From: a virus | DNA: 41,907 nucleotides | Direction: 5' to 3' (one strand) | Virus record (IMG/VR): IMGVR_UViG_3300049491_000115 | Span: 1 to 41,907 of that record | In this document: piece after piece, positions 8,614-36,215 of the stretch | Position numbering within the stretch: position 1 is the stretch's first letter | Layout of the letters: the number at the start of each line of letters is the position of its first letter | The notes under the pieces: model-generated | What the model saw: the letters and a program-made list of their open reading frames with translations, nothing else | Database searches by the model: none | Told to the model about the DNA's origin: nothing | Made by a program: the position numbers and the translations under genes

Positions 8614-9573
8614 TTAGGGGTTGACGTCCAACCGGCCCTGGAACTGTGCTCCAGAGGTAGTCATGTTACCCGCCCATCCAAGGATTTGGACTTCAGCGTC
8701 CTGGTTGATCGCATACCGTTTGTTTGGATTCAGGCTCACGAAGTTACGAGCACTGTGGGGACGGTAGTGGATATACTTGCTGTTCAGGAAGAACGCAGTA
8801 CCCAGAGGGCAGAAGCCACCGATGCCGCCGTCAAGCACAAAGTCGCAATCCATGTACTTGATGGTTGGGAACCCCAGCGATGCACTGGAGGGATCGGTGA
8901 AGCGTTGGTTCGCCTGGAGGCTTGCCAGATACGCTTTCCAAACCACACTGTCTGCAATGATCAGGTCGGGGCGGTCAGAGCCACGAACCAAACGGGACCA
9001 GAGGTCATTCATGTCCGCTTGCAGAGTAGTGGTGTTGGCAGAGTTCTGTATTTTGGAGCGCCAGAACAGCCAAGTAGCACGATCGATGCCACCGTAGACG
9101 CCGGTCGTTGGGTCAAGCGGGATTGCCGCATCCAGACCTACGATTTGCTTACCTCCGAAAGCCAGTCCGTTACTGTACAACCCGCCGCAGACGAGGTTCT
9201 GCATGGTGGATTCGGCAACGTCAATGCGGGAAGTCAGCAGATCGATCATCTGCTCGGGGCCTGCGTTCTGCAGCATCTCCAGGCCGGAGATGGTGACAGG
9301 GCAAGCTGCCTGCTTGATGTCGTACTGAGCGGCTGAAATAACGTCCTGTGCAGCGACTGGCAACAGATCGTAGCCACTGTAGAAACCCGCGTTTCCGTTC
9401 TCTGCGAAGCTCAGCTCTTCGTAGATCAGTCGACCACCAGAGAAGGTGCGACTTCGGCCGCGCTCTTTCAAGCGCATCAGCAGGGCGTTGTTCTTTGTTA
9501 CGTTGTCCGCAATCTTGCGACTGCGTTTTTCGATGGTTGTAGCGATGATATCGCTTACGTTCGGGAATGCCAT
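8614..9573 (-). CDS. Major capsid protein (HK97-type fold)
   Basis: A 319-residue protein of the family found in BPP-1-like podoviruses. It opens MAFPNVSDIIATTIEKRSRK, then NNALLMRLKERG and SGGRLIYEELSFAENG, which matches the N-terminal arm and E-loop side of these capsids. GLEMLQNAGPEQMIDLL (spine-like helix), IIADSVVWKAYLASL and the final DAEVQILGWAGNMTTS fit the P- and A-domain portions. The scaffold gene lies immediately upstream, and the gene has its own promoter (9668-9696) and terminator, as expected for the most abundant virion protein. GAGGTGA lies upstream of the ATG. Confidence 0.88.
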   Translation of the reverse strand: MAFPNVSDIIATTIEKRSRKIADNVTKNNALLMRLKERGRSRTFSGGRLIYEELSFAENGNAGFYSGYDLLPVAAQDVISAAQYDIKQAACPVTISGLEMLQNAGPEQMIDLLTSRIDVAESTMQNLVCGGLYSNGLAFGGKQIVGLDAAIPLDPTTGVYGGIDRATWLFWRSKIQNSANTTTLQADMNDLWSRLVRGSDRPDLIIADSVVWKAYLASLQANQRFTDPSSASLGFPTIKYMDCDFVLDGGIGGFCPLGTAFFLNSKYIHYRPHSARNFVSLNPNKRYAINQDAEVQILGWAGNMTTSGAQFQGRLDVNP

Positions 9574-9667
9574 AAATCACCTCACTAAGTTGATGTTATC
9601 TCGCCACTGTAGGAGGTGAGCTCCGCCCTACGGGGTCAGATGTAGGTGCGAGCGGCTAGGAAGTTAC

Positions 9668-25174: not shown

Positions 25175-25615
25175 ATGTTTGGGATTAAGAAGAAGTTTGG
25201 CGGGGCGAAAGTTGCCGCCAAGAATATGGAGAACCGGGACCAGATGCAGGCGCTCGTGGGCGGATGTCTACTGGTTGCTGCTGCCGATGGCAGCATTACC
25301 TCGGAGGAATCCAACAAGCTTGAGACCCTACTCCGCGCCAATAAGAACCTGAGCGGGTTTGGACCTGAGCTCACGGAAACGCTGAACCGCTTTACTGAAA
25401 AGCTGCAAGCGAACTTCCGTGTTGGGGAGCTCGACATTATGCGGGAAATTGGCGACATTGCCAGTCAGCCCTCTAATGCCGAGGAAGTCTTTGTCAACAT
25501 GCTGGCCATTGCCGAGGGCGACGACGGTGACATCAGCGACAAAGAAATGGCTGTACTCAAAAAGGTTGGGCTCAAGCTCAACCTGCGCCTGAAAGACTTT
25601 GGCATTGAAGGCTAA
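25175..25615 (+). CDS. TerB-like domain protein (146 aa)
   Basis: Two repeats of the TerB-type helix-loop pattern: LLVAAADGSITSEESNKLETLL at about 33-54, whose acidic loop could bind a divalent ion, and AIAEGDDGDISDKEMAVLKKV at about 110-131. The family (TerB/DjlA N-terminal) is linked to bacterial stress and phage-defence-related membrane complexes; the function is not fully known. A basic, Lys-rich N-terminus precedes the domain. The downstream gene for a small membrane protein overlaps by 17 bases, so a membrane-associated pair is possible. Confidence 0.8.
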   Translation: MFGIKKKFGGAKVAAKNMENRDQMQALVGGCLLVAAADGSITSEESNKLETLLRANKNLSGFGPELTETLNRFTEKLQANFRVGELDIMREIGDIASQPSNAEEVFVNMLAIAEGDDGDISDKEMAVLKKVGLKLNLRLKDFGIEG

Positions 25616-26998: not shown

Positions 26999-28810
26999 AT
27001 GTATTCATTAGACTTTGAAACAGAAGCAATCATATTCGGCAACGCCATTCCCCCCAAGCCGGTCGGCTGCGCCATCCGTACCCATGATGGGGGTAAGAAG
27101 TACTTCGCCTTCGGCCACCCTACGCAGAACAACTGCACATGGGAGGAGTTCCACCGATACCTGACCATCATATGGGAGCAGGAGATGGTCGGCCACAACA
27201 TCATAGGCTTTGACCTATGGGTGGCGGAGTACTGGTTTAAGATGCCACCACGCGACCCACTACTCACCCACGACACCCTGTTCCAATCCTACCTTATCGA
27301 CCCCCACGCCCCGAGCCTAAAGCTGAAAGACCTAGCAAGCGACTGGCTTGGGATGTCCACCGACGCACAGCAGGAGCTCTACCAGTGGATTCTGGCCAAC
27401 GTGCCGGAGTGCCGCACCATCAACCAGTGCGGAGCATTTATCTGCCGAGCTCCAGGTGACTTGGTGGGTCGTTACGCCATAGCTGACGTTGACATGGCTC
27501 AAACCCTGCACGACTACTGCTATCCCAAGCTAAGCGAGATGCTGCCCCCGTACGACAGGGAGCGGGTGCTGGCTCCCATACTTACCAAGATACAGCATGG
27601 GGGAATACGCATAGACGTACCAAGGTTGGAGGTGGATCACAAGACCTGCCTCAACAAGCTCCACCACTTGGACGAACTCATACGGGCGCATCTCAAGGCC
27701 CCTGACCTCAACCCTGGAAGTGATAAGGATCTGGTATGTGCGCTAAAAGACGCAGGTTACGAAGGTTTCTTGCTGACCCCAACCGGCCGACCCTCCGCGA
27801 ACAAGGCCAGCCTAGAGGCCGTGCTGAGCAAGGACCCAGAGCTCCAGAGGATGCTGCGAAGCAGGGCTCTGTACAGCACCCTGACAGGCACGTTCATGGG
27901 GCCGTGGCTGAATTACGCCAAGATGAATGGTGGCACGATCAACCCGAGCTACAATCAAGTGAGGAACCCGGATGGGTACGGGACCCGGACGGGGAGGCTC
28001 TCATCGTCCAACCCAAATGGGCAGAATATCCCGGGACCCCAAGATGAGAAGGAGTACGAAGGTACCGACTACTTTGGTGATACGTACCCCCTCATGCGAT
28101 CGTACTGCCTGCCAGACGAAGGGTGTGTCTGGTACAGTATAGACTTCAAGAGCCAAGAGCCACGTCTCACCGCCCACTTTGAGGATGGTGCGCTCATGCA
28201 GGCGTACATTGACGACCCAGAGCTTGACCCCTACATCTTCGTGATGAATACCGTGGGTGGGGACGTTACCCGCAAGGATGCCAAGGTAATTTTCCTTGGT
28301 CTGGTCTACGCGATGGGTGCGGCGGTCTTGGCAGGCAAGCTCGGCTGTAGTATGGAGAGGGCCAGTGCTCTGCGCAACGCCATCAGGCTGGCCATCCCCG
28401 ACGTCGTACAGTTGGACAGGGACTGCAAGCGGCGGTTTGAGCTCGGGCTGCCTATCAAGACGTTAGGGGGGCGATTCTGCCATGTTGAGCCCCCTTCAAA
28501 TGGACGTCAGTGGGCGTACAAGGCGCTGAACTTGCTGATACAGGGGTCTGCCGCCGACCAAACCAAGGAGGCCATGATCTACGCATACGAGGCGCTGTGC
28601 AACGAGCAGGCAATACGCGAAAGAAACGGTATTGACTTCCCTTGGAGGCTGCTTGGTTCGGTACATGACGAAATAAACCTCTGCGCCCCTGAAGGGGCAA
28701 GGGATTTAATAGAACACTTCATGCTGGAGGCTGTCAACGCCCTCCCGTGTGACGTTCCCATGCGTATCAGCTTTGGGGTCGGCAACAATTGGGCGGAGGC
28801 ATCAAAATGA
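26999..28810 (+). CDS. DNA polymerase, family A (603 aa)
   Basis: Replicative polymerase with a 3'-5' exonuclease. Exo motifs are visible: LDFETEA (Asp5, Glu7), GHNIIGFD (66-73) and YAIADVDM (159-166). Polymerase motif A is YSIDFKSQEPRLTAHF (about 378-393), motif B RKDAKVIFLGLVYAMG (about 424-439), and motif C VHDE (about 555-558), all with the catalytic Asp, Arg/Lys/Tyr and Asp-Glu. At 603 residues it is shorter than T7 polymerase and lacks room for a thioredoxin-binding insertion. It would work with the SF3-type primase-helicase and the SSB-like protein. TGGAG precedes the ATG. Confidence 0.95.
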   Translation: MYSLDFETEAIIFGNAIPPKPVGCAIRTHDGGKKYFAFGHPTQNNCTWEEFHRYLTIIWEQEMVGHNIIGFDLWVAEYWFKMPPRDPLLTHDTLFQSYLIDPHAPSLKLKDLASDWLGMSTDAQQELYQWILANVPECRTINQCGAFICRAPGDLVGRYAIADVDMAQTLHDYCYPKLSEMLPPYDRERVLAPILTKIQHGGIRIDVPRLEVDHKTCLNKLHHLDELIRAHLKAPDLNPGSDKDLVCALKDAGYEGFLLTPTGRPSANKASLEAVLSKDPELQRMLRSRALYSTLTGTFMGPWLNYAKMNGGTINPSYNQVRNPDGYGTRTGRLSSSNPNGQNIPGPQDEKEYEGTDYFGDTYPLMRSYCLPDEGCVWYSIDFKSQEPRLTAHFEDGALMQAYIDDPELDPYIFVMNTVGGDVTRKDAKVIFLGLVYAMGAAVLAGKLGCSMERASALRNAIRLAIPDVVQLDRDCKRRFELGLPIKTLGGRFCHVEPPSNGRQWAYKALNLLIQGSAADQTKEAMIYAYEALCNEQAIRERNGIDFPWRLLGSVHDEINLCAPEGARDLIEHFMLEAVNALPCDVPMRISFGVGNNWAEASK

Positions 28811-29882: not shown

Positions 29883-30247
29883 TGCGTATAGAGTCCAAGA
29901 TAGAGAAGGACTACGTTAAGGAGATAGAGAAGTGGGCGCGCACTAACCATGTCGCCCTCGAAACTATTAAGATGAACCTCAAGGGCCGGAGGGGGTGGCC
30001 AGACAGGATGGTGCTTTGGGAGGGGGCCAACGTCTTCTTCATAGAGTTCAAACAACCGGACGAGTGTGCTCGCAGGTTACAGGAGTACATACACAAGATA
30101 CTAAGAGCTATGGGATTTGAGGTAGAATTGCATGACAACACAGACGATGCTCTCGAAAGTACAAAAGCCAAGATACGAGCCACGGCCCTTGCAGATAAAG
30201 GCCATGATGTTGGGGGTCAGGGAGGCGGGGTTCCGCCTATTCCTTAA
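29882..30247 (+). CDS. VRR-NUC domain nuclease (121 aa)
   Basis: Residues of about 5-88 form a VRR-NUC domain: GRRGWPDRMVLWEGANVFF with Asp41, IEFKQPDE with Glu55 and Lys57, and a helix YIHKILRAMGFEVEL. This family of virus-type replication-repair nucleases is common in phage and in FAN1. The ATG (29882) overlaps the upstream TGA as TGATG. After the domain, the last 38 codons overlap the helicase gene in another frame, so the C-terminal tail (GHDVGGQGGGVPPIP) is probably not functional. Confidence 0.85.
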   Translation: MRIESKIEKDYVKEIEKWARTNHVALETIKMNLKGRRGWPDRMVLWEGANVFFIEFKQPDECARRLQEYIHKILRAMGFEVELHDNTDDALESTKAKIRATALADKGHDVGGQGGGVPPIP

Positions 30248-31607
30248 GCCTGGAAGGGGGAAGACTGCCGTAGCCCTGAAGGTCTACGACATACTTAAGA
30301 AAGGCGGCCATGTGGACTGTATGCTGGTCGTCGCCCCCCTCAGGGTGGTGGCGACCTCGTGGCCCCAAGAACTCAATAAGTGGGAGGACTTTGAGCACCT
30401 GACAGCAGCCCTCGTGCATGGGGGCAAGGACGCCCGTCGTGCCGCGCTGGAGTCGAACGTTGACGTATACCTGATGAACGCGGAGGGGCTGATAGGCACG
30501 GAGTTCAAGCCCATCGTAGTAGACCCAACCAAGAAACGAAAAACCTATAGACCCAACCCATACGGTGAAGCATGGTTCCAAGGCAAGAGAGTAATGTTAG
30601 TCATAGACGAGTCCACGCTTTTCAAGGACCCCAATGCCCTGAGGAGCCAGTCCCTGAAGACGTACCTGCACATGACGAATCGCCGGTGCGTCATGACTGG
30701 GACACCGAGACCTGGACGGCTTGAGAACCTGTTCTTCCAGTGCTACATCACGGACTTGGGGGCGGACCTCGGCAGGTTTATCACATACTTCCGCAACTCC
30801 TACATGAAGCCAGCACCCGACGGCTACGGGTACGAGGAGCTAGAGGGGGCTAACGAGCGTGTGGCTGAGAAGATAGCTCACTGTACCGTGGTGTCAGAGG
30901 GCGACGATGACATGCCCACGCTGGAGGTCCCAGTCTGGGTGCCGATGCCCCCTGAGGTCCGCGCCCTGTACCTAGAGCTGAAGAAGGACTTCATCATAGC
31001 CTTGGGGGACAGTACGGTCATGGCCCCCAACGCGGGAGTACTCTGGGGCAAGCTCCGCCAGTTTGCTCAGGGGGCGATATTCGACACCATCAACAACATT
31101 GATGAAAAGAACAGGAAGTGGCTCCCAGTACATGATGGTAAGCTGGACGCACTGGAGGGTATACTCAACGAGCTAGATGGGGAGCCAGCCTTCCTACTCT
31201 ACGCCTACCGCCATGACTTCGAGCGTATCAACACTCGGCTAGGGTACGAAGTGCCGCGAGTGGGGGGCGGCATATCACTAACGCAGGGCCGAGCACATTG
31301 TCAAATGTTCAGTGCTGGACAGTACCCCCTGATGGTCGGGCACCCTGCGTCGGTGGCAAGGGGGATTGATGGTCTGCAGAACAACTGCCGGAACGTGATC
31401 TGGTTCGGTAATGACCCTAGCTGGGAAGCCACCTATCAAGCCAACCTGCGGATAGCGAGACATGGTTCTAAGGCGGAGAGCGTCACCATATACAGGATTA
31501 TGCTGGACTGTAGTGTGGAGCGCAGCATACAAGAGGCCTGTACAGGAAAGGAGATGGCTGAACGTGACTTTCTCAACCTGCTACGGACTAACTTGAAGTC
31601 GGAATAA
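30132..31607 (+). CDS. SF2/SNF2-like DNA helicase (491 aa)
   Basis: Residues 39-47 are a Walker A variant (LKPGRGKTAV). Motif Ia is MLVVAPLRVVATSW, motif II VIDESTLFKD (about 154-163, Asp-Glu-Ser), motif III TGTPRPGRLENLF, and motif VI is in the IARHGSKAES region. The layout is that of phage SNF2-like helicases used in replication or recombination. GAGG precedes the ATG at 30132; ATG 30147 is an alternative. It overlaps the VRR-NUC gene by 116 bases, an unusually long overlap. A helicase next to two nucleases suggests a repair or recombination set. Confidence 0.88.
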   Translation: MTTQTMLSKVQKPRYEPRPLQIKAMMLGVREAGFRLFLKPGRGKTAVALKVYDILKKGGHVDCMLVVAPLRVVATSWPQELNKWEDFEHLTAALVHGGKDARRAALESNVDVYLMNAEGLIGTEFKPIVVDPTKKRKTYRPNPYGEAWFQGKRVMLVIDESTLFKDPNALRSQSLKTYLHMTNRRCVMTGTPRPGRLENLFFQCYITDLGADLGRFITYFRNSYMKPAPDGYGYEELEGANERVAEKIAHCTVVSEGDDDMPTLEVPVWVPMPPEVRALYLELKKDFIIALGDSTVMAPNAGVLWGKLRQFAQGAIFDTINNIDEKNRKWLPVHDGKLDALEGILNELDGEPAFLLYAYRHDFERINTRLGYEVPRVGGGISLTQGRAHCQMFSAGQYPLMVGHPASVARGIDGLQNNCRNVIWFGNDPSWEATYQANLRIARHGSKAESVTIYRIMLDCSVERSIQEACTGKEMAERDFLNLLRTNLKSE

Positions 31608-31736: not shown

Positions 31737-32291
31737 ATGACCTATGAAGCCGCACTGAATCAAGAAGCCGCTGGTGCCGAGACCCCTGACGCTCCCAAGG
31801 GAGGCAAGAAATCTCGTGCCAAGACTGAAGCTGTGCCCAAGTCATACCCGCAGTTCAACGAGGACGGCACCCCCCAACTGGACGGTGAAGGCAAACAAGT
31901 CTGGGGGCCGGAGAAATCCACCCACAAGGCCAAGAAAGCCAAGAAAGTGAAGGAAATTGAGTACCAAAAAGGCGAGGACGGCGAGTTCCTCTTGGACGAA
32001 AAGGGTGATAAAATCCCTGTGCCCAAGAAAGCCCGTGCACCCAAGCTGGACGCAGACGGAAACCCGATCCCGCGCCAAGTCAACGTCTTCCTGGGAACTC
32101 AGGTCATCACGCTTACCGACCAAGCGTTGAAGGTGTCCTACCGCCCTGACTCCAAGCGCGGCACCATCTTCGCCAGCATCAAGGACGGCATGACGGTTGA
32201 CGAGTTCTACGCTGCGAATCAAGGCAAGGCGGTGTCCCACACCTTCCTGGTCTGGTATCTCAACGAAGCCAAGGTCATTGACATCGCTTGA
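31737..32291 (+). CDS. Lys-rich, monocistronic protein with repeats (184 aa)
   Basis: A 184-residue, Lys-rich protein. The N-terminal half is disordered and basic (GGKKSRAKTEAV, KAKKAKKVKEI) and has three diverged repeats of 'DGxxxLDxxGxxVPxPKK' type near 37-110. The C-terminal 70 residues look folded (VNVFLGTQVITLTDQALKV, YRPDSKRGTIFASIKDG). It has a strong late-type promoter and a strong terminator of its own. A highly made DNA- or nucleic-acid-binding protein is plausible. The family is not recognised. Confidence 0.7.
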   Translation: MTYEAALNQEAAGAETPDAPKGGKKSRAKTEAVPKSYPQFNEDGTPQLDGEGKQVWGPEKSTHKAKKAKKVKEIEYQKGEDGEFLLDEKGDKIPVPKKARAPKLDADGNPIPRQVNVFLGTQVITLTDQALKVSYRPDSKRGTIFASIKDGMTVDEFYAANQGKAVSHTFLVWYLNEAKVIDIA

Positions 32292-32358: not shown

Positions 32359-33621
32359 ATGCGAATATTACTCGCCTTCTACCCTATAGACGATATGGGG
32401 GGAATAATCAACCACAATGAACAACTCTGTGCAGGGCTCCAGGAGCTAGGGCACGAAGTGAACACTCTGTGCTTCGTACCACGCACGAATCACCCACGCA
32501 ACGGGATAGCTGGAGGAAGGGGAGCCTTCTCCCCCTACACTGGCCTGGAGTTCGACCAGCGGAGGGGGTACTCGTGGCCCTCGGGCCGCATTGTCCCGTA
32601 CCTTGGTGATGCCAACGTGAAGATAGCGCAGGAGATAATCCGCAAGTACGACCTTGTTATCTGGCAGATAGCAGTCCCGACCAAGCGCAAGGAGAACAGG
32701 GGGAACACCGACTGGGAGCTACTGTACCAGAGTGGGGTCCCCAACCTAGCGGTCATCCACGACGGTAACTTCCTGAACTCCTACCCTTGGCTGTGCGACG
32801 TGCAGGATTACCTAAGTGGACTGATATGCGTCCACCACTGCGCGTTCAACTCTGCCAAGAACATCACAGTACCGAGCAGCTTCATACCTAACCCTCAGGA
32901 GCCACTGAATCGCCCCCCTGATACGTCCATGGCTGCGTGGGGCGAGCGCCAGCCCGGAGTGCTGAGTGTGCAGACCTTCAAGGCGTGGAAGCACGTCCCG
33001 GAGTACGTCGCTGCTATTCCCCACATGAGCCACAGCATCGCCAAATTCTTGGCAGGGAAGGGCATTGACTACTACTACCTCACTAGCCAGGACAAATGCA
33101 AGTGGCCCGACATCTGGAAGTACGCGATACAGTCCGGGATGGTGTACCTAGACGTCATCACCAACGAAGTCAGGGACTCGGTACTACGGAATGTCACCTG
33201 CCTCTTGGACCCTAGCTGGAGCCTGAAATATTCCCAGATAGGGGGACACTTCAACAGGGTGTTGGTTGACGCTATCAAGTGTGGTACACTACCAGTGGTG
33301 CGGCCCTTGGGCATCTCGACCAATTTAGAAGGGTCGGGCGAGCTTTTTAAGGCAGGCGTGAACTGTGTGGCTATACCACAAGGGGTTACTCCTATGGAAT
33401 ACGGGAGACGGCTCTCCGAGGCTTGTACGCTTCCCTACCCGAAGTGGCGTGACCTCATGGGTAATGCGATAGAGCTCCTCCCCCTGTTTGACCGTAAGCG
33501 GGTGGCGGAGCAGGTAATGGAGTTAGCACAGGGAGACTGGCAGCAGATGGGGAAAACGACCCCAGAAGTAGAGAAGGCATCAGAGAACGCCCACTTCACA
33601 TTTTTTGGAGCCACAGCATGA
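32359..33621 (+). CDS. GT-B-type glycosyltransferase, probable DNA-base modification enzyme (420 aa)
   Basis: A GT-B-fold glycosyltransferase of the GT4-like kind. The N-terminal domain opens MRILLAFYPIDDMGGIINHN followed by LCAGLQELGHEV, the usual start of these enzymes. The C-terminal half shows LSVQTFKAWKHVPEYVAAI and NRVLVDAIKCGTLPVVRPLG, the latter like the sugar-nucleotide side with a conserved Glu/Ala region. It is the first gene of a cassette with an alpha-glutamyl/putrescinyl-thymine-pyrophosphorylase-like protein and a thymidylate synthase homologue, so its target is probably a modified thymine in phage DNA rather than a surface sugar. The donor sugar is unknown. GGAG precedes the ATG. 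Confidence 0.72.
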   Translation: MRILLAFYPIDDMGGIINHNEQLCAGLQELGHEVNTLCFVPRTNHPRNGIAGGRGAFSPYTGLEFDQRRGYSWPSGRIVPYLGDANVKIAQEIIRKYDLVIWQIAVPTKRKENRGNTDWELLYQSGVPNLAVIHDGNFLNSYPWLCDVQDYLSGLICVHHCAFNSAKNITVPSSFIPNPQEPLNRPPDTSMAAWGERQPGVLSVQTFKAWKHVPEYVAAIPHMSHSIAKFLAGKGIDYYYLTSQDKCKWPDIWKYAIQSGMVYLDVITNEVRDSVLRNVTCLLDPSWSLKYSQIGGHFNRVLVDAIKCGTLPVVRPLGISTNLEGSGELFKAGVNCVAIPQGVTPMEYGRRLSEACTLPYPKWRDLMGNAIELLPLFDRKRVAEQVMELAQGDWQQMGKTTPEVEKASENAHFTFFGATA

Positions 33622-34415
33622 TAAACAAGGTGAACTTAGAGAGACTGATTTATTGGATACGGGAGCGTGAAGTAATACGCGTCTACAAGGGTGCTGGGAA
33701 AAAGCCCCCTTGGACGCAGGACCCCATACTCGCCAACTACCACTTCTGCAACGTGTGTCGGGAGGATGACCGTGGCACTAGGGAGATACACTCGGTGCGG
33801 GAGGAGCTAGACCCAGACTATGACCAACTCCCCACATTCTACACGGCAGCGAGGCTTCTCAACAAGGCGTCCAGCCTGCGCATCTTCTGGAACATGGGCA
33901 TTGAGCAGTTGCAGGACATGCGACTAAGGGGGGAGACAGTATTCCACACGGCCTATGTAGTCAGTACCTGCGGAGCCAGCATGGATAAGCTAGACTACGT
34001 GCAGAGAGTGGTGGACGACGTAGCTTTGATCCCCATCGGCAATGCTTCATGCCGTGAAGCCTTCACCTGTCTACGCAAGGTGGATGGTTTGGGGAGCTTC
34101 CTCGCGGGTCAGGTGGTAGCCGACCTCAAGTATACTCCGTACCTCAGACCCGACAAGGTGGGGGACTGGAGGTCATTTGCCGTGATGGGGCCAGGAAGCA
34201 AGAAGGGTATGGACTACCTGTTCAGCGGCGGCACCACGGAGAACAACTTCATGGACCGGCTGATGGCCCTGAGGTTCGAGTTGGGGGAGCAGATGTTGGA
34301 CTTCCCCGCCATCCACAATCAGGACTTGCAGAACTGCCTGTGTGAGTTCAGCAAGTACATGCGACTACTACTAGGCGACAAAGGTCGCAGGAGGCCGTAC
34401 CATGCTGTCAGTTGA
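33618..34415 (+). CDS. Alpha-glutamyl/putrescinyl-thymine pyrophosphorylase-like (glycosylase-fold) protein (265 aa)
   Basis: The opening IREREVIRVYKGAGKKPPWT-DPILANYHFCNVCREDDR matches the core of the aGPT-Pplase clade, proteins of the HhH-GPD DNA glycosylase type that act in thymine hypermodification in phages such as phiW-14 and SP10. A central VDGLGSFLAGQVVADLKY segment is a helix-hairpin-helix-like GLG turn. Family members replace the 5-hydroxymethyl of modified dU, after phosphorylation, with an amine. Here no hmdU kinase gene lies nearby and a glycosyltransferase sits upstream. ATGA overlap with the previous gene. The exact chemistry is unknown. Confidence 0.72.
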   Translation: MINKVNLERLIYWIREREVIRVYKGAGKKPPWTQDPILANYHFCNVCREDDRGTREIHSVREELDPDYDQLPTFYTAARLLNKASSLRIFWNMGIEQLQDMRLRGETVFHTAYVVSTCGASMDKLDYVQRVVDDVALIPIGNASCREAFTCLRKVDGLGSFLAGQVVADLKYTPYLRPDKVGDWRSFAVMGPGSKKGMDYLFSGGTTENNFMDRLMALRFELGEQMLDFPAIHNQDLQNCLCEFSKYMRLLLGDKGRRRPYHAVS

Positions 34416-35370
34416 TGTGAAGAATGTAAACGACGCCTACGAGCTTCTGATGAAGAAGGTGTGGAGGGAGGGTATATCTACGCAGACCCGAAACGGTGAA
34501 GCTATGGCCCTTCCACACCCCCTGCTCGTACACTTCAGCCACCCAACTCAGCGGGTACTGTTTGACCCGCAGCGGGACGCCAATCCATTCTTCCACTTAG
34601 TGGAGGCGCTGTGGATGCTGGCAGGGCGCAACGACGTGGATTTCATCTCTGGCTTCAACAAAAACATGATGAACTACAGCGACGATGGTCTTACCTTCAA
34701 CGCCGCCTATGGACATCGGTGGCGGCATCACTTCGGGTACGACCAAATAGACAGGGCGTGTCGCATACTAGCCAAGAACGCTGAGGACAGGCGCTGCGTT
34801 CTGGCCATGTGGGACGGGGCCAAGGACTTAGGGGGTGATGGTCTGGACTACCCCTGCAACACGACAATCATGTGTAGGGTGGAGAACGGAGCGCTGGACT
34901 TTACAATCACCAACCGTAGCAACGACTTGGTGTTTGGACTGTGCGGGGCGAACGCCGTACACATGACCATACTTCAGGAGTACATGGCCACGAGGATAGG
35001 GGTCAAGGTAGGTCAATGGTATCACCTGTCCAACAACCTCCATGTGTACGAGAGGCACTACCCCCTCATCCGCGGTATACTGGACGCTTACCCTATGAGG
35101 CCTCCCAAGTACCCCGCTCAGCAGCCGCTGGTCAGGGACTGGACAGCGTTTGACAGGGACTGCATCGCTATGTGCAACGGAACGTGGCAGGACTTTGAAG
35201 AACCCTTCTTCTGCTACACTGTGTCCCCTATGCTCAAGGCGTGGGAGCACTGGAAGACTAAGGACATAGTGAGAGCTATGAACCAAGCCACCATGATACT
35301 TTCAGACGATTGGAAACTGGCAGCAACTCAATGGCTACAACGGAGAATACCAAATGAAACTACTAGATAG
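34402..35370 (+). CDS. Thymidylate synthase homologue, probable dUMP hydroxymethylase (322 aa)
   Basis: The core motifs of the family are present: FNAAYGHRWR, then DYPCNTTIMCRVENGALDFT (the catalytic Cys), TNRSNDLVFGL (Arg, Ser, Asp), a folate/dUMP-binding CGANAVHMTILQEYMA and LSNNLHVYERH (His, Tyr). Canonical thymidylate synthase has PCH at the catalytic site; here it is PCN. The segment before YGHRWR is NKNMMNYSDDG, without the Trp pair (WDxW) of true synthases, whose loss favours hydroxymethyl transfer. In the neighbourhood of glycosyltransferase, glycosylase-like and Nmad1 genes, 5-hydroxymethyl-dUMP formation is the best guess; plain dTMP synthesis is possible. Confidence 0.75.
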   Translation: MLSVDVKNVNDAYELLMKKVWREGISTQTRNGEAMALPHPLLVHFSHPTQRVLFDPQRDANPFFHLVEALWMLAGRNDVDFISGFNKNMMNYSDDGLTFNAAYGHRWRHHFGYDQIDRACRILAKNAEDRRCVLAMWDGAKDLGGDGLDYPCNTTIMCRVENGALDFTITNRSNDLVFGLCGANAVHMTILQEYMATRIGVKVGQWYHLSNNLHVYERHYPLIRGILDAYPMRPPKYPAQQPLVRDWTAFDRDCIAMCNGTWQDFEEPFFCYTVSPMLKAWEHWKTKDIVRAMNQATMILSDDWKLAATQWLQRRIPNETTR

Positions 35371-35929
35371 GATAGCGGCAGCACGACAAGGGGGTGCGGT
35401 GACACGATATCACACCTCCCGTATGGTGATGCCAGAGACCGTGGGTCAGCATACGTTCAACATGGTTCATCTTGCCATGATACTAACAGAGGGGCAGATG
35501 AGTGTCCCCCTGTTTCAGGCCATGCTGAGCCACGACCTCGGGGAGTATATGACGGGGGACCTCCCCAGCCCCATGAAGAAGCGACTGCCGGTGGAGTTCA
35601 AGGACCACCTTGTGGAGGTTGAGGCCCAAGCCATTGAGGGCATACACCCGAACGCACCCATGGACCTCAAGCCCCACGAGGTCAACTTGCTCATGCTGTG
35701 CGACAACCTGGACGGGCTGCTCAAGTGCATGGATGAACTCACTATGGGGAACGGCTTCGCACTCACCTTTGGTAATCGGTACTACGACTACATAAAGGAG
35801 TTTATGAAGGACACTGGTGACCTCATGCACGAAGACGCTGTGTGGGAAATACTTGACAAATACAAAGAGATAAGGAGAGCTTATGAACCCCGATGGCTTT
35901 ACACGCCGACTTATGACCATTGTGGATGA
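35354..35929 (+). CDS. HD-domain 5'-nucleotidase, YfbR-like (191 aa)
   Basis: The N-terminal region RYHTSRMVMPETVGQHTFNM, with HD in MLSHDLGEYMTGDLPSPMKKR (about 58-78), matches the YfbR family of dNMP phosphohydrolases. The family removes phosphate from deoxynucleoside monophosphates. In a phage with modified thymine it would deplete host dTMP or dUMP to keep unmodified bases out of DNA. The start overlaps the synthase gene by 17 bases; the end overlaps the next gene by 47. No loss of the HD metal ligands is apparent. Confidence 0.83.
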   Translation: MKLLDRIAAARQGGAVTRYHTSRMVMPETVGQHTFNMVHLAMILTEGQMSVPLFQAMLSHDLGEYMTGDLPSPMKKRLPVEFKDHLVEVEAQAIEGIHPNAPMDLKPHEVNLLMLCDNLDGLLKCMDELTMGNGFALTFGNRYYDYIKEFMKDTGDLMHEDAVWEILDKYKEIRRAYEPRWLYTPTYDHCG

Positions 35930-36215
35930 TGATGTCCACGTACTCCACGCCAAGAACAGGGAGTACGGGCAATCCTGGAAGAAGCGCGGAGGTGTGGGGG
36001 CGTTCATGATGCTCGCCCGCAAGTGGGACAGGTTGGAGACTCAGTGCAAGGCCAAGGACTGGGACATCTTTGAGGTGTGCAACGGCAACGACGCCCTGAT
36101 GGAGGATACCATGGACACCATCCGTGACCTGCGTCGCTACCTGCTCCTTGTTGAGGACCATGTGCTCAACGAGCTCGGGCCTCAGCCTCCACGGGAGTAT
36201 GTGAATCCCGATTAG
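35883..36215 (+). CDS. Nmad1/DUF1599 nucleotide-modification-associated protein (110 aa)
   Basis: HAKNREYGQSWKKRGGVGAF, ARKWDRLE and the C-terminal EDTMDTIRDLRRYLLLV match the nucleotide modification associated domain 1 (DUF1599) pattern, an all-alpha domain related in layout to MazG-type NTP pyrophosphatases. It is found in phages next to DNA base-modification genes, where it may clear unwanted nucleotides. Its presence at the end of this cassette is independent support for a base-modification function. It overlaps the HD gene by 47 bases. A promoter follows. Confidence 0.78.
   Translation: MNPDGFTRRLMTIVDDDVHVLHAKNREYGQSWKKRGGVGAFMMLARKWDRLETQCKAKDWDIFEVCNGNDALMEDTMDTIRDLRRYLLLVEDHVLNELGPQPPREYVNPD

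Follow-up and report, generated by a model that had tools for sequence, protein, structure and literature searches.

Among described phages, the closest parallels to the locus reported here are M6 and PaMx11, which infect Pseudomonas, and Pam3, a Pseudanabaena phage, all of which share with it a dUMP hydroxymethylase, a PF18723 protein, an HD protein and an Nmad-like gene, in the same order and beside DNA polymerase I. These phages also have a P-loop 5-hmdU kinase, the amino-acid:DNA transferase ADDT (PF18724) and radical SAM, PLP and FAD enzymes, whereas in our locus a GT-B glycosyltransferase (GT) sits in the kinase slot. The T-even phages, like our locus, combine a hydroxymethylase with a DNA base glycosyltransferase (AGT and BGT in T4, TAGT in T6-type phages), and the GT-B fold of T4 AGT resembles the model of our enzyme, but their base is hydroxymethylcytosine (hmC), made via a dCMP hydroxymethylase, while the synthase here is of the dUMP type. 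We know of no PF18723 protein in T-even phages. Relatives of TAGT glucosylate the DNA bases of T-even phages (PMC13216743, PMC13390438). The type of product expected here, an O-glycosylated 5-hydroxymethyluracil in DNA, is that of kinetoplastid base J, for which thymine in DNA is oxidised by TET/JBP before JGT acts (PMC6449724); the hmU of base J comes from the oxidation of DNA, whereas the hmdU of our locus would stem from a nucleotide-level hydroxymethylase. A further likeness to the predicted product is the sugar-bearing modified thymine in the DNA of Bacillus phage SP-15, a dihydroxypentyluracil with glucose and phosphoglucuronate; that phage carries synthases of the Thy1 type and a sugar cluster of 10 genes (PMC5977210). 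The cultured Brevibacterium phage LuckyBarnes (NC_047851) has an operon that encodes a hydroxymethylase of the dUMP type together with PF18723 and two TAGTs; a kinase was looked for in its genome and not found, and its slot enzyme is a TAGT (GT-A), whereas ours is a GT-B. No measurement of the LuckyBarnes DNA base was found in the literature (PMC6588365). Operons of a glycosyltransferase plus aGPT may have been predicted earlier (Iyer 2013; Lee 2018, 2022; Wen 2024).

The DNA analysed here (the window) is an entire IMG/VR virus record of 41,907 nucleotides, IMGVR_UViG_3300049491_000115. An earlier note on it had proposed a five-gene thymidine hypermodification cassette at 32359-36215, and the ORFs and coordinates hold: all five are open, lie on the + strand and overlap by a few bases. 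On comparative evidence, the cassette is likely to represent a branch of thymidine hypermodification that uses a sugar: 5-hmdU would be glycosylated directly in the phage DNA, with PF18723 as a shared hmdU-DNA-handling partner.

The synthase and the identity of the base

The third gene (34402..35370; 322 aa) encodes a dUMP hydroxymethylase-type homologue of thymidylate synthase, a superfamily to which it is assigned by PF00303 (1e-24) and phrog_5131 (1e-103). Its catalytic C152 corresponds to C146 of ThyA, N177 is retained, H147 and Q165 are both replaced by N, and W80 is missing. The changed active site described in the earlier note is therefore real, and canonical ThyA, the assignment that the note had set against its own proposal, was rejected on these differences at 147, 165 and W80. 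The N147/N165/N177 signature is common to the window synthase, SPO1 gp29 and M6 gp58, and N is found at 147 and 177 in all 136 cassette synthases tested, irrespective of partner. Identity is 40% with M6 gp58 (38-44% across the M6, PaMx11 and Pam3 synthases), 25% with ThyA and 21% with T4 gp42. The latter differs in having T147, M165 and ND at 176-177, and a T-even type of dCMP hydroxymethylase was rejected because these residues are absent. From the signature we infer that the synthase makes 5-hydroxymethyl-dUMP from dUMP. Were the hmdU assignment wrong, the modified base would be a cytosine, with a sugar on hydroxymethyl-dC in the T-even style; hmC is the known substrate of TAGT and T4 AGT, the closest PDB sequence to the synthase is the CMP hydroxymethylase MilA, and the LuckyBarnes authors guessed a dCMP hydroxymethylase (PMC6588365). 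We nevertheless regard a cytosine base as highly improbable, given the SPO1/M6 signature, unlike that of gp42, and the presence of the same synthase type in the kinase cassettes of hmdU phages (136/136 tested).

The HD nucleotidase recognised earlier is a YfbR-like HD 5'-deoxynucleotidase (35354..35929; 191 aa; PF12917, 1e-13), whose gene, as in PaMx11, M6 and Pam3, comes after that of the synthase, and which probably trims the dNTP/dNMP pool. The last gene (35883..36215; 110 aa) had been called Nmad1, an assignment left unconfirmed, as no Pfam family matches at E<=0.1 and the phrog_1485 match is weak (7e-4). Its product is a small conserved cassette protein that is homologous to the Nmad-like gene 3' of HD in PaMx11 and Pam3 and has homologues in 235 examined loci; its relatives match nothing in Pfam or weakly match DUF3310.

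The glycosyltransferase in the kinase slot

The first gene (32359..33621; 420 aa) encodes a putative hmdU-DNA glycosyltransferase in the position of the 5-hmdU kinase. Profile searches found neither the P-loop kinase (PF18748) nor ADDT (PF18724) in the whole 41.9-kb record, which is linear and may be a fragment, while 7/7 kinase-type records serving as positive controls were matched; the lack of a kinase that had been reported earlier is thus upheld. Radical SAM, PLP and FAD enzymes of the M6/PaMx11/Pam3-type cassettes were likewise not found in the window, nor were any sugar-nucleotide genes recognised there. The enzyme itself matches Pfam weakly (PF13439, E 0.008, under the cut-off), but a profile of its family matches GT-B enzymes in the PDB (7e-5), and its AlphaFold model (pLDDT 90.9) has the GT-B fold, in agreement with the earlier assignment. 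The closest folds are the GT4-type enzymes PimA, HepE and BshA (E ~1e-11; Foldseek 1.7e-11), and T4 alpha-glucosyltransferase with HMU-DNA (1y8z) is matched at E 2e-8 and TM 0.60. In a 38-member alignment D12, G14-G15-I16, H134-D135, K208, W210-K211, D284, H297 and N299 are invariant; the canonical EX7E motif is missing, its first acidic residue being G/A/N/S followed by the invariant H297, and D/E304, at the second EX7E position, is mostly retained. The TAGT profile (PF20691), which at its curated cut-off matches 8/8 TAGT-bearing records, has no match in the window record, and comparison of the window-type GT-B and TAGT profiles detected no relation (hhalign probability 0.1%), so the slot has been filled at least twice by glycosyltransferases.

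As a single sequence the window GT retrieved no relatives from IMG/VR and, by tblastn, no match among cultured phages, where a relative from another locus found weak Gordonia GT matches only; a two-row GT alignment as the IMG/VR query yielded 63 loci. PF18723 adjoined the GT or was present at 62/63 of these, and the hydroxymethylase at nearly all, and since they had been found with the GT alone, its association with PF18723 is not a matter of chance. The layout is common to many related uncultured phages in IMG/VR, and the GT usually overlaps or adjoins PF18723 or the synthase across many phage lineages. The similarity to the cell-envelope enzymes PimA and HepE, weak and of GT4 type, would suit a surface-polysaccharide or host-glycan enzyme that is the cassette's neighbour by chance, a reading that the earlier note had weighed as a surface-sugar clade and that is rendered very improbable by the 62/63 relatives in the cassette, by the replacement of the enzyme in place by TAGT or kinase, and by its near absence from 84,980 cellular genomes, where only 3 relatives were found, 2 of them inside the same type of cassette. 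One cellular chromosome that lacks the cassette has a broken copy of the GT.

PF18723 and the exchange of its partners

A census of 266 PF18723 loci gave as partner the P-loop kinase at 61, TAGT at 100, the window-type GT-B at 69, both GTs at 4 and an unassigned 300-aa protein (X300) at 7, with none found at 25; these labels may move by a few, as the 'GT' of L200 and L207 are remote matches (E 1e-5, 7e-7) and some of the TAGT-profile matches, with E from 1e-13 to 1e-18, are radical SAM proteins, picked up by the profile through a fusion at L009. The X300 family has no Pfam or PDB match and no profile match to the GTs. Kinase and glycosyltransferase of any kind occurred together at 0 of the 266 loci. 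ADDT was present in 42/61 kinase cassettes vs 0/180 non-kinase cassettes, and an M6-type radical SAM in 25/61 vs 0 in the others. In whole records bearing GT or TAGT (the window and 30 others, linear and possibly fragments) the kinase was found in 0/31 and ADDT over the cut-off in 0/31, each against 7/7 kinase controls. An amine-bearing base, the other product that the earlier note had entertained, is disfavoured by this distribution of ADDT and its absence from the window record.

Judged from sequence, the slot partners are swapped in place between related cassettes. A TAGT cassette (L049) and a GT-B cassette (L128) are 70% identical in PF18723, 86% in the synthase, 72% in HD and 70% in the small protein; a TAGT vs kinase exchange (L078, L059) shows 63% and 53% identity, and one between L199, with kinase, ADDT, PLP and radical SAM, and L200, with its distant GT-B, 63% and 63%. 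The PF18723 tree has 26 partner changes vs 53.8 when shuffled, and its starred branches force at least 6-7 changes for each main partner. Together with the census and the 62/63 loci, these exchanges strongly support the earlier proposal that a GT stands in place of the 5-hmdU kinase, pointing to a sugar-bearing base.

The second gene (33618..34415; 265 aa) encodes the PF18723 protein (Pfam, E 5e-33). The earlier note called it aGPT-Pplase-like, which stands insofar as PF18723 is the former 'aGPT-Pplase clade 1', now 'HMUDK_hel' (helical domain of 5-hmdU kinase) in Pfam; it does not belong to the amino-acid-transferring 'aGPT-Pplase2' clade, now ADDT (PF18724), and a pyrophosphorylase step found no support. 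A search against PDB sequences gave nothing useful. The best fold match of the model (pLDDT 94.7) is the 5-PmdU glycinyltransferase gp46 of PaMx11 (prob 0.87-0.90), a weak one at TM 0.45 and E ~0.5, and the fold is also weakly near HhH glycosylases. Some 20 residues are near-invariant and the same with every type of partner. In Bacillus phage Goe26 kinase and PF18723 are fused, which argues for physical coupling to the modifying enzyme; it is the only fusion of PF18723 with a slot enzyme, none with GT or TAGT occurring among the ORFs examined. From context, the weak fold match and the invariant residues, we infer that PF18723 is a helical, glycosylase-like DNA partner that presents or recognises hmdU for the enzyme in the adjacent slot. 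The invariant residues are equally compatible with a catalytic site.

Were PF18723 itself catalytic on hmdU-DNA, activating or transferring, the GT would act on its product rather than on bare hmdU. In keeping with this are the near-invariant residues, kept whatever the partner, and a nearest fold that is an enzyme; against it, PF18723 is common to kinase and GT cassettes of differing chemistry and fused to the kinase in Goe26, other proteins phosphorylate and transfer the amine in M6-type pathways (PMC6449724, PMC9476957), and MW202897 has TAGT and a hydroxymethylase with no PF18723 gene detected, so that we consider it unlikely. MW202897 also indicates that PF18723 is not always required, and its occurrence alongside a dCMP-type synthase in the Microbacterium phages Golden and Mandalorian that it may not be strictly hmdU-specific.

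The predicted pathway and its product

In the direct glycosylation that we favour, the synthase would convert dUMP to 5-hydroxymethyl-dUMP, the small protein and the HD nucleotidase would alter the nucleotide pool in favour of hmdUTP, which takes the place of dTTP, and the phage polymerase would put 5-hmdU into DNA, as in M6/SPO1-type phages. PF18723, predicted to be neither a pyrophosphorylase nor kinase-specific, would recognise or present hmdU to the adjacent-slot enzyme, and the GT-B enzyme, to judge from gene context, fold and the exclusion of the kinase, would move a sugar from a host nucleotide-sugar to the hydroxymethyl group in DNA, with no phosphorylation. The product would be a base-J-like O-glycosyl-5-hydroxymethyl-deoxyuridine shielding phage DNA from restriction and repair. 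The sugar might instead be added to hmdUMP, hmdUTP or the free nucleoside and enter DNA via the polymerase, since the operon holds nucleotide-level enzymes (synthase and HD nucleotidase) and in SP-15 some of the base is thought to be formed ahead of DNA synthesis (PMC5977210), but this is improbable when the kinase of the same slot acts on DNA (PMC6449724), T4 AGT and TAGT work on DNA, and the helical fold of PF18723 is nearest, if weakly, a DNA-acting transferase and HhH glycosylases.

More broadly, we lean towards viewing PF18723 as a general hmdU-DNA module for which phages repeatedly swap the modifying enzyme (kinase, TAGT, GT-B, X300), with glycosylated thymidine bases in phage DNA forming a large class as yet undescribed, some of them perhaps heptose-bearing because ADP-heptose genes lie inside several cassettes. 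If true, this would mean that thymidine carrying a sugar is widespread among uncultured phages, that DNA of the base-J kind occurs in viruses of bacteria, and that PF18723, a family linked to the kinase, should count as a shared module. The cassettes would then supply new DNA glycosyltransferases, together with candidate substrates for enzymes of modification-dependent restriction, and LuckyBarnes, being cultured, makes the sugar-base question directly testable. A Lys/Ala/Pro-rich protein encoded just ahead of the cassette (31737..32291, +), with no Pfam or PHROG match, may be an accessory component; in sister phages, too, its conserved gene directly precedes that of the GT, at 25 loci.

The cassette and its glycosyltransferase

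The linear 41,907-bp IMG/VR virus record carries its structural genes (terminase, portal, major head protein and amidase) on the minus strand, and the cassette (32359-36215) sits after the plus-strand replication genes, which include DNA polymerase I (26999-28810), a PD-(D/E)XK exonuclease and an SNF2-type helicase (30132-31607). Since sister records that share this gene order span 39.6-42.7 kb, the record is probably near complete. The five consecutive genes described in the earlier note were confirmed at their given positions, as overlapping ORFs on a single strand. The first (32359-33621), proposed to be a GT-B glycosyltransferase (GT), was scarcely detected by Pfam (0.008), and the proposal held: PDB GT-B enzymes were matched by an alignment of 38 family members, and an AlphaFold model (pLDDT 90.9) matched GT4-type GT-B enzymes (E 1.7e-11) and resembled in fold the T4 alpha-glucosyltransferase with HMU-containing DNA bound (1y8z, E 2e-8, TM 0.60). 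Of the description of gene 2 as aGPT-Pplase-like, the aGPT-Pplase1 type stood (PF18723, 5e-33), and aGPT-Pplase2 was absent. Genes 3 and 4 were indeed a thymidylate synthase homologue (phrog_5131, 1e-103) and a YfbR-like HD protein (1e-13); gene 5 is a conserved protein with no Pfam family matches, leaving its reading as Nmad1 unconfirmed. Elsewhere in the window, 25175-25615 encodes a protein of the PHROG "tellurite resistance" family (phrog_632, 2e-46).

With the GT family as the only query (an alignment of the enzymes of the window and locus L013), IMG/VR yielded 63 loci, and the fetched DNA of 62 of them contained PF18723, with the synthase and small protein in nearly all; in the remaining one the DNA begins 274 bp before the GT gene. 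Two orders recurred, GT-PF18723-synthase-HD, as in the window, and PF18723-GT-synthase-HD. Among 84,980 cellular genomes there were only three relatives, two of them on short MAG contigs that also carry the cassette and the third (L271:8001-9246) a frame-broken copy without the cassette in a Pseudomonadales chromosome, adjoining a type III CRISPR locus and a MocA oxidoreductase. Because its relatives lie nearly all in PF18723 cassettes and are near absent from cellular genomes, a surface-sugar role for the window GT, the alternative raised in the earlier note, appears unlikely.

Partners of PF18723 and their exchange

In phages M6, PaMx11 and Pam3 a P-loop kinase (PF18748) is followed in turn by PF18723, in some cases an extra gene, synthase, HD, Nmad-like protein and DNA polymerase I, whereas the window has PF18723 without the kinase or ADDT (PF18724, amino acid:DNA transferase), the current Pfam name for aGPT-Pplase2; PF18723 itself is now "HMUDK_hel". 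For the M6-like phage SN1, these parts have been listed as aGPT-Pplase1, nucleotide kinase, rSAM, PLP enzyme and aGPT-Pplase2 (PMC9476957). M6 gp54 (L002:41685-42248) and PaMx11 gp49 (L001:6218-6787) are annotated "terminase small subunit" in public records, and PF18748 or P-loop matches identify both as 5-hmdU kinases. In Bacillus phage Goe26 (L275:7056-8966), a 636-aa protein annotated as hypothetical fuses a 5-hmdU kinase (residues 35-193) to PF18723 (312-597).

Further loci were gathered with PF18723 as the query and classed by profiles built in this analysis. The 266 loci, a sample drawn by similarity in which proportions are not abundances, had as partner TAGT (100), an enzyme adding a second glucose onto hmC in T6-type phages (PMC13216743, PMC13390438), the window-type GT (69), the kinase (61), TAGT and GT together (4), X300, a family of about 300 aa (7), or none (25). 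Kinase and GT were never found in one locus (0/266). ADDT occurred in 42 of 61 kinase loci versus 0 of 180 GT, TAGT or X300 loci, and M6-type radical SAM in 25 of 61 versus none. Searches of whole records found no kinase in 31 GT or TAGT records, with all 7 controls matching; the window, for which the lack of a kinase had been noticed at first reading, is one of the 31.

A quick tree of 107 PF18723 proteins, made without bootstrap, needed a minimum of 26 changes of partner type (mean of 53.8 when shuffled), and its well-supported branches called for no fewer than 6 or 7 for each main type, of which there are three. L049 (TAGT) and L128 (window-type GT) share 70% identity in PF18723, 86% in the synthase, 72% in HD and 70% in the small protein; L078 (TAGT) and L059 (kinase) gave 63% and 53%, and L199 (kinase, ADDT, PLP enzyme and radical SAM) and L200 (distant GT4-like) 63% and 63%. 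As close pairs swap partners in place and profile comparison found no relationship between TAGT and the window GT, the partner position is, judged from sequence, a single slot that unrelated enzymes have come to occupy while the core stayed constant, which agrees with the earlier suggestion that a GT occupies the kinase's place.

PF18723 has the same near-invariant residues whatever its partner, and no position clearly separated kinase-linked from GT-linked members. Its best fold match, a weak one, was the PaMx11 5-PmdU glycinyltransferase gp46 (E ~0.5, TM 0.45), with HhH glycosylases lower. Given this match, its chemically different partners and its fusion to the kinase, PF18723 would be a DNA-presenting partner.

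The probable modified base

In the window synthase the catalytic Cys is retained, ThyA positions 147, 165 and 177 are all N and W80 is lacking, which bears out the changed, non-canonical active site proposed for it. The pattern is that of SPO1 gp29 (a dUMP hydroxymethylase) and M6 gp58, and is unlike E. coli ThyA (H, Q, N, W80) and T4 gp42. N147 and N177 were present in 136/136 cassette synthases tested, with any partner, and this common signature makes 5-hmdU the most likely substrate to which the sugar is added. hmdU would first be made as a nucleotide, next incorporated into DNA and then glycosylated within it, and, sugar genes being rare in GT-B cassettes, host nucleotide sugars are the likely donor.

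Glucosylated 5hmdU was, according to a 2019 paper (PMC6449724), unreported in phages, and no later report was found in the literature searched, the coverage of which was partial; the cassette would be a sugar branch of known thymidine hypermodification, with novelty claimed with that reserve. The cultured phage LuckyBarnes (host B. iodinum ATCC 15728) encodes the synthase (gp41), TAGT (gp40 and gp39) and PF18723 (gp38), with no detectable kinase. Its announcement guessed at a dCMP hydroxymethylase, together with a pair of GTs that modify DNA (PMC6588365), whereas the residue signature says that the synthase is of dUMP type.

Variant cassettes

Two M6-like cassettes have a remote GT4/GT47-like glycosyltransferase (L200:1266-2390, L207:5848-6969) and no kinase or amine genes. 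The Microbacterium phages Golden (L272) and Mandalorian (L278) have PF18723 with a dCMP-type synthase, adjoined by a kinase-like gene in Golden and by TAGT in Mandalorian, possibly a kinase/GT exchange in a cytosine setting between cultured relatives on one host. In about 25 loci the gene immediately upstream of the GT or TAGT encodes a conserved Lys/Ala/Pro-rich protein, which the window has at 31737-32291.

X300 (L068:383-1345, L083:9627-10559, L054:6856-7995, L014:11062-11886) had no Pfam, PDB or profile matches and is, from its place in the kinase/GT slot, a candidate new DNA-modifying transferase. With X300 in the slot, L066:4594-10900 and L071:6881-12688 carry a complete-looking ADP-heptose set (PfkB-type HldE kinase, adenylyltransferase, GmhB and GmhA) adjoining PF18723 and the hydroxymethylase, and four TAGT loci likewise have ADP-heptose genes, which suggests heptosylated hmdU. 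L009:3324-5063 encodes TAGT fused to a radical SAM/SPASM domain and several other TAGT or X300 cassettes have stand-alone SPASM radical SAM genes, which may mean that the sugar or the base undergoes further modification there. A sulfotransferase-like gene within the L083 cassette (8843-9625; PF13469, 3e-4, below cut-off) makes a sulfated modification possible, and NAD-dependent nucleotide-sugar epimerase/dehydratase genes adjoin the GT or TAGT at L013:10163-12657, L184:6817-9266 and L043:5705-6676, hinting at a donor sugar made by the phage.
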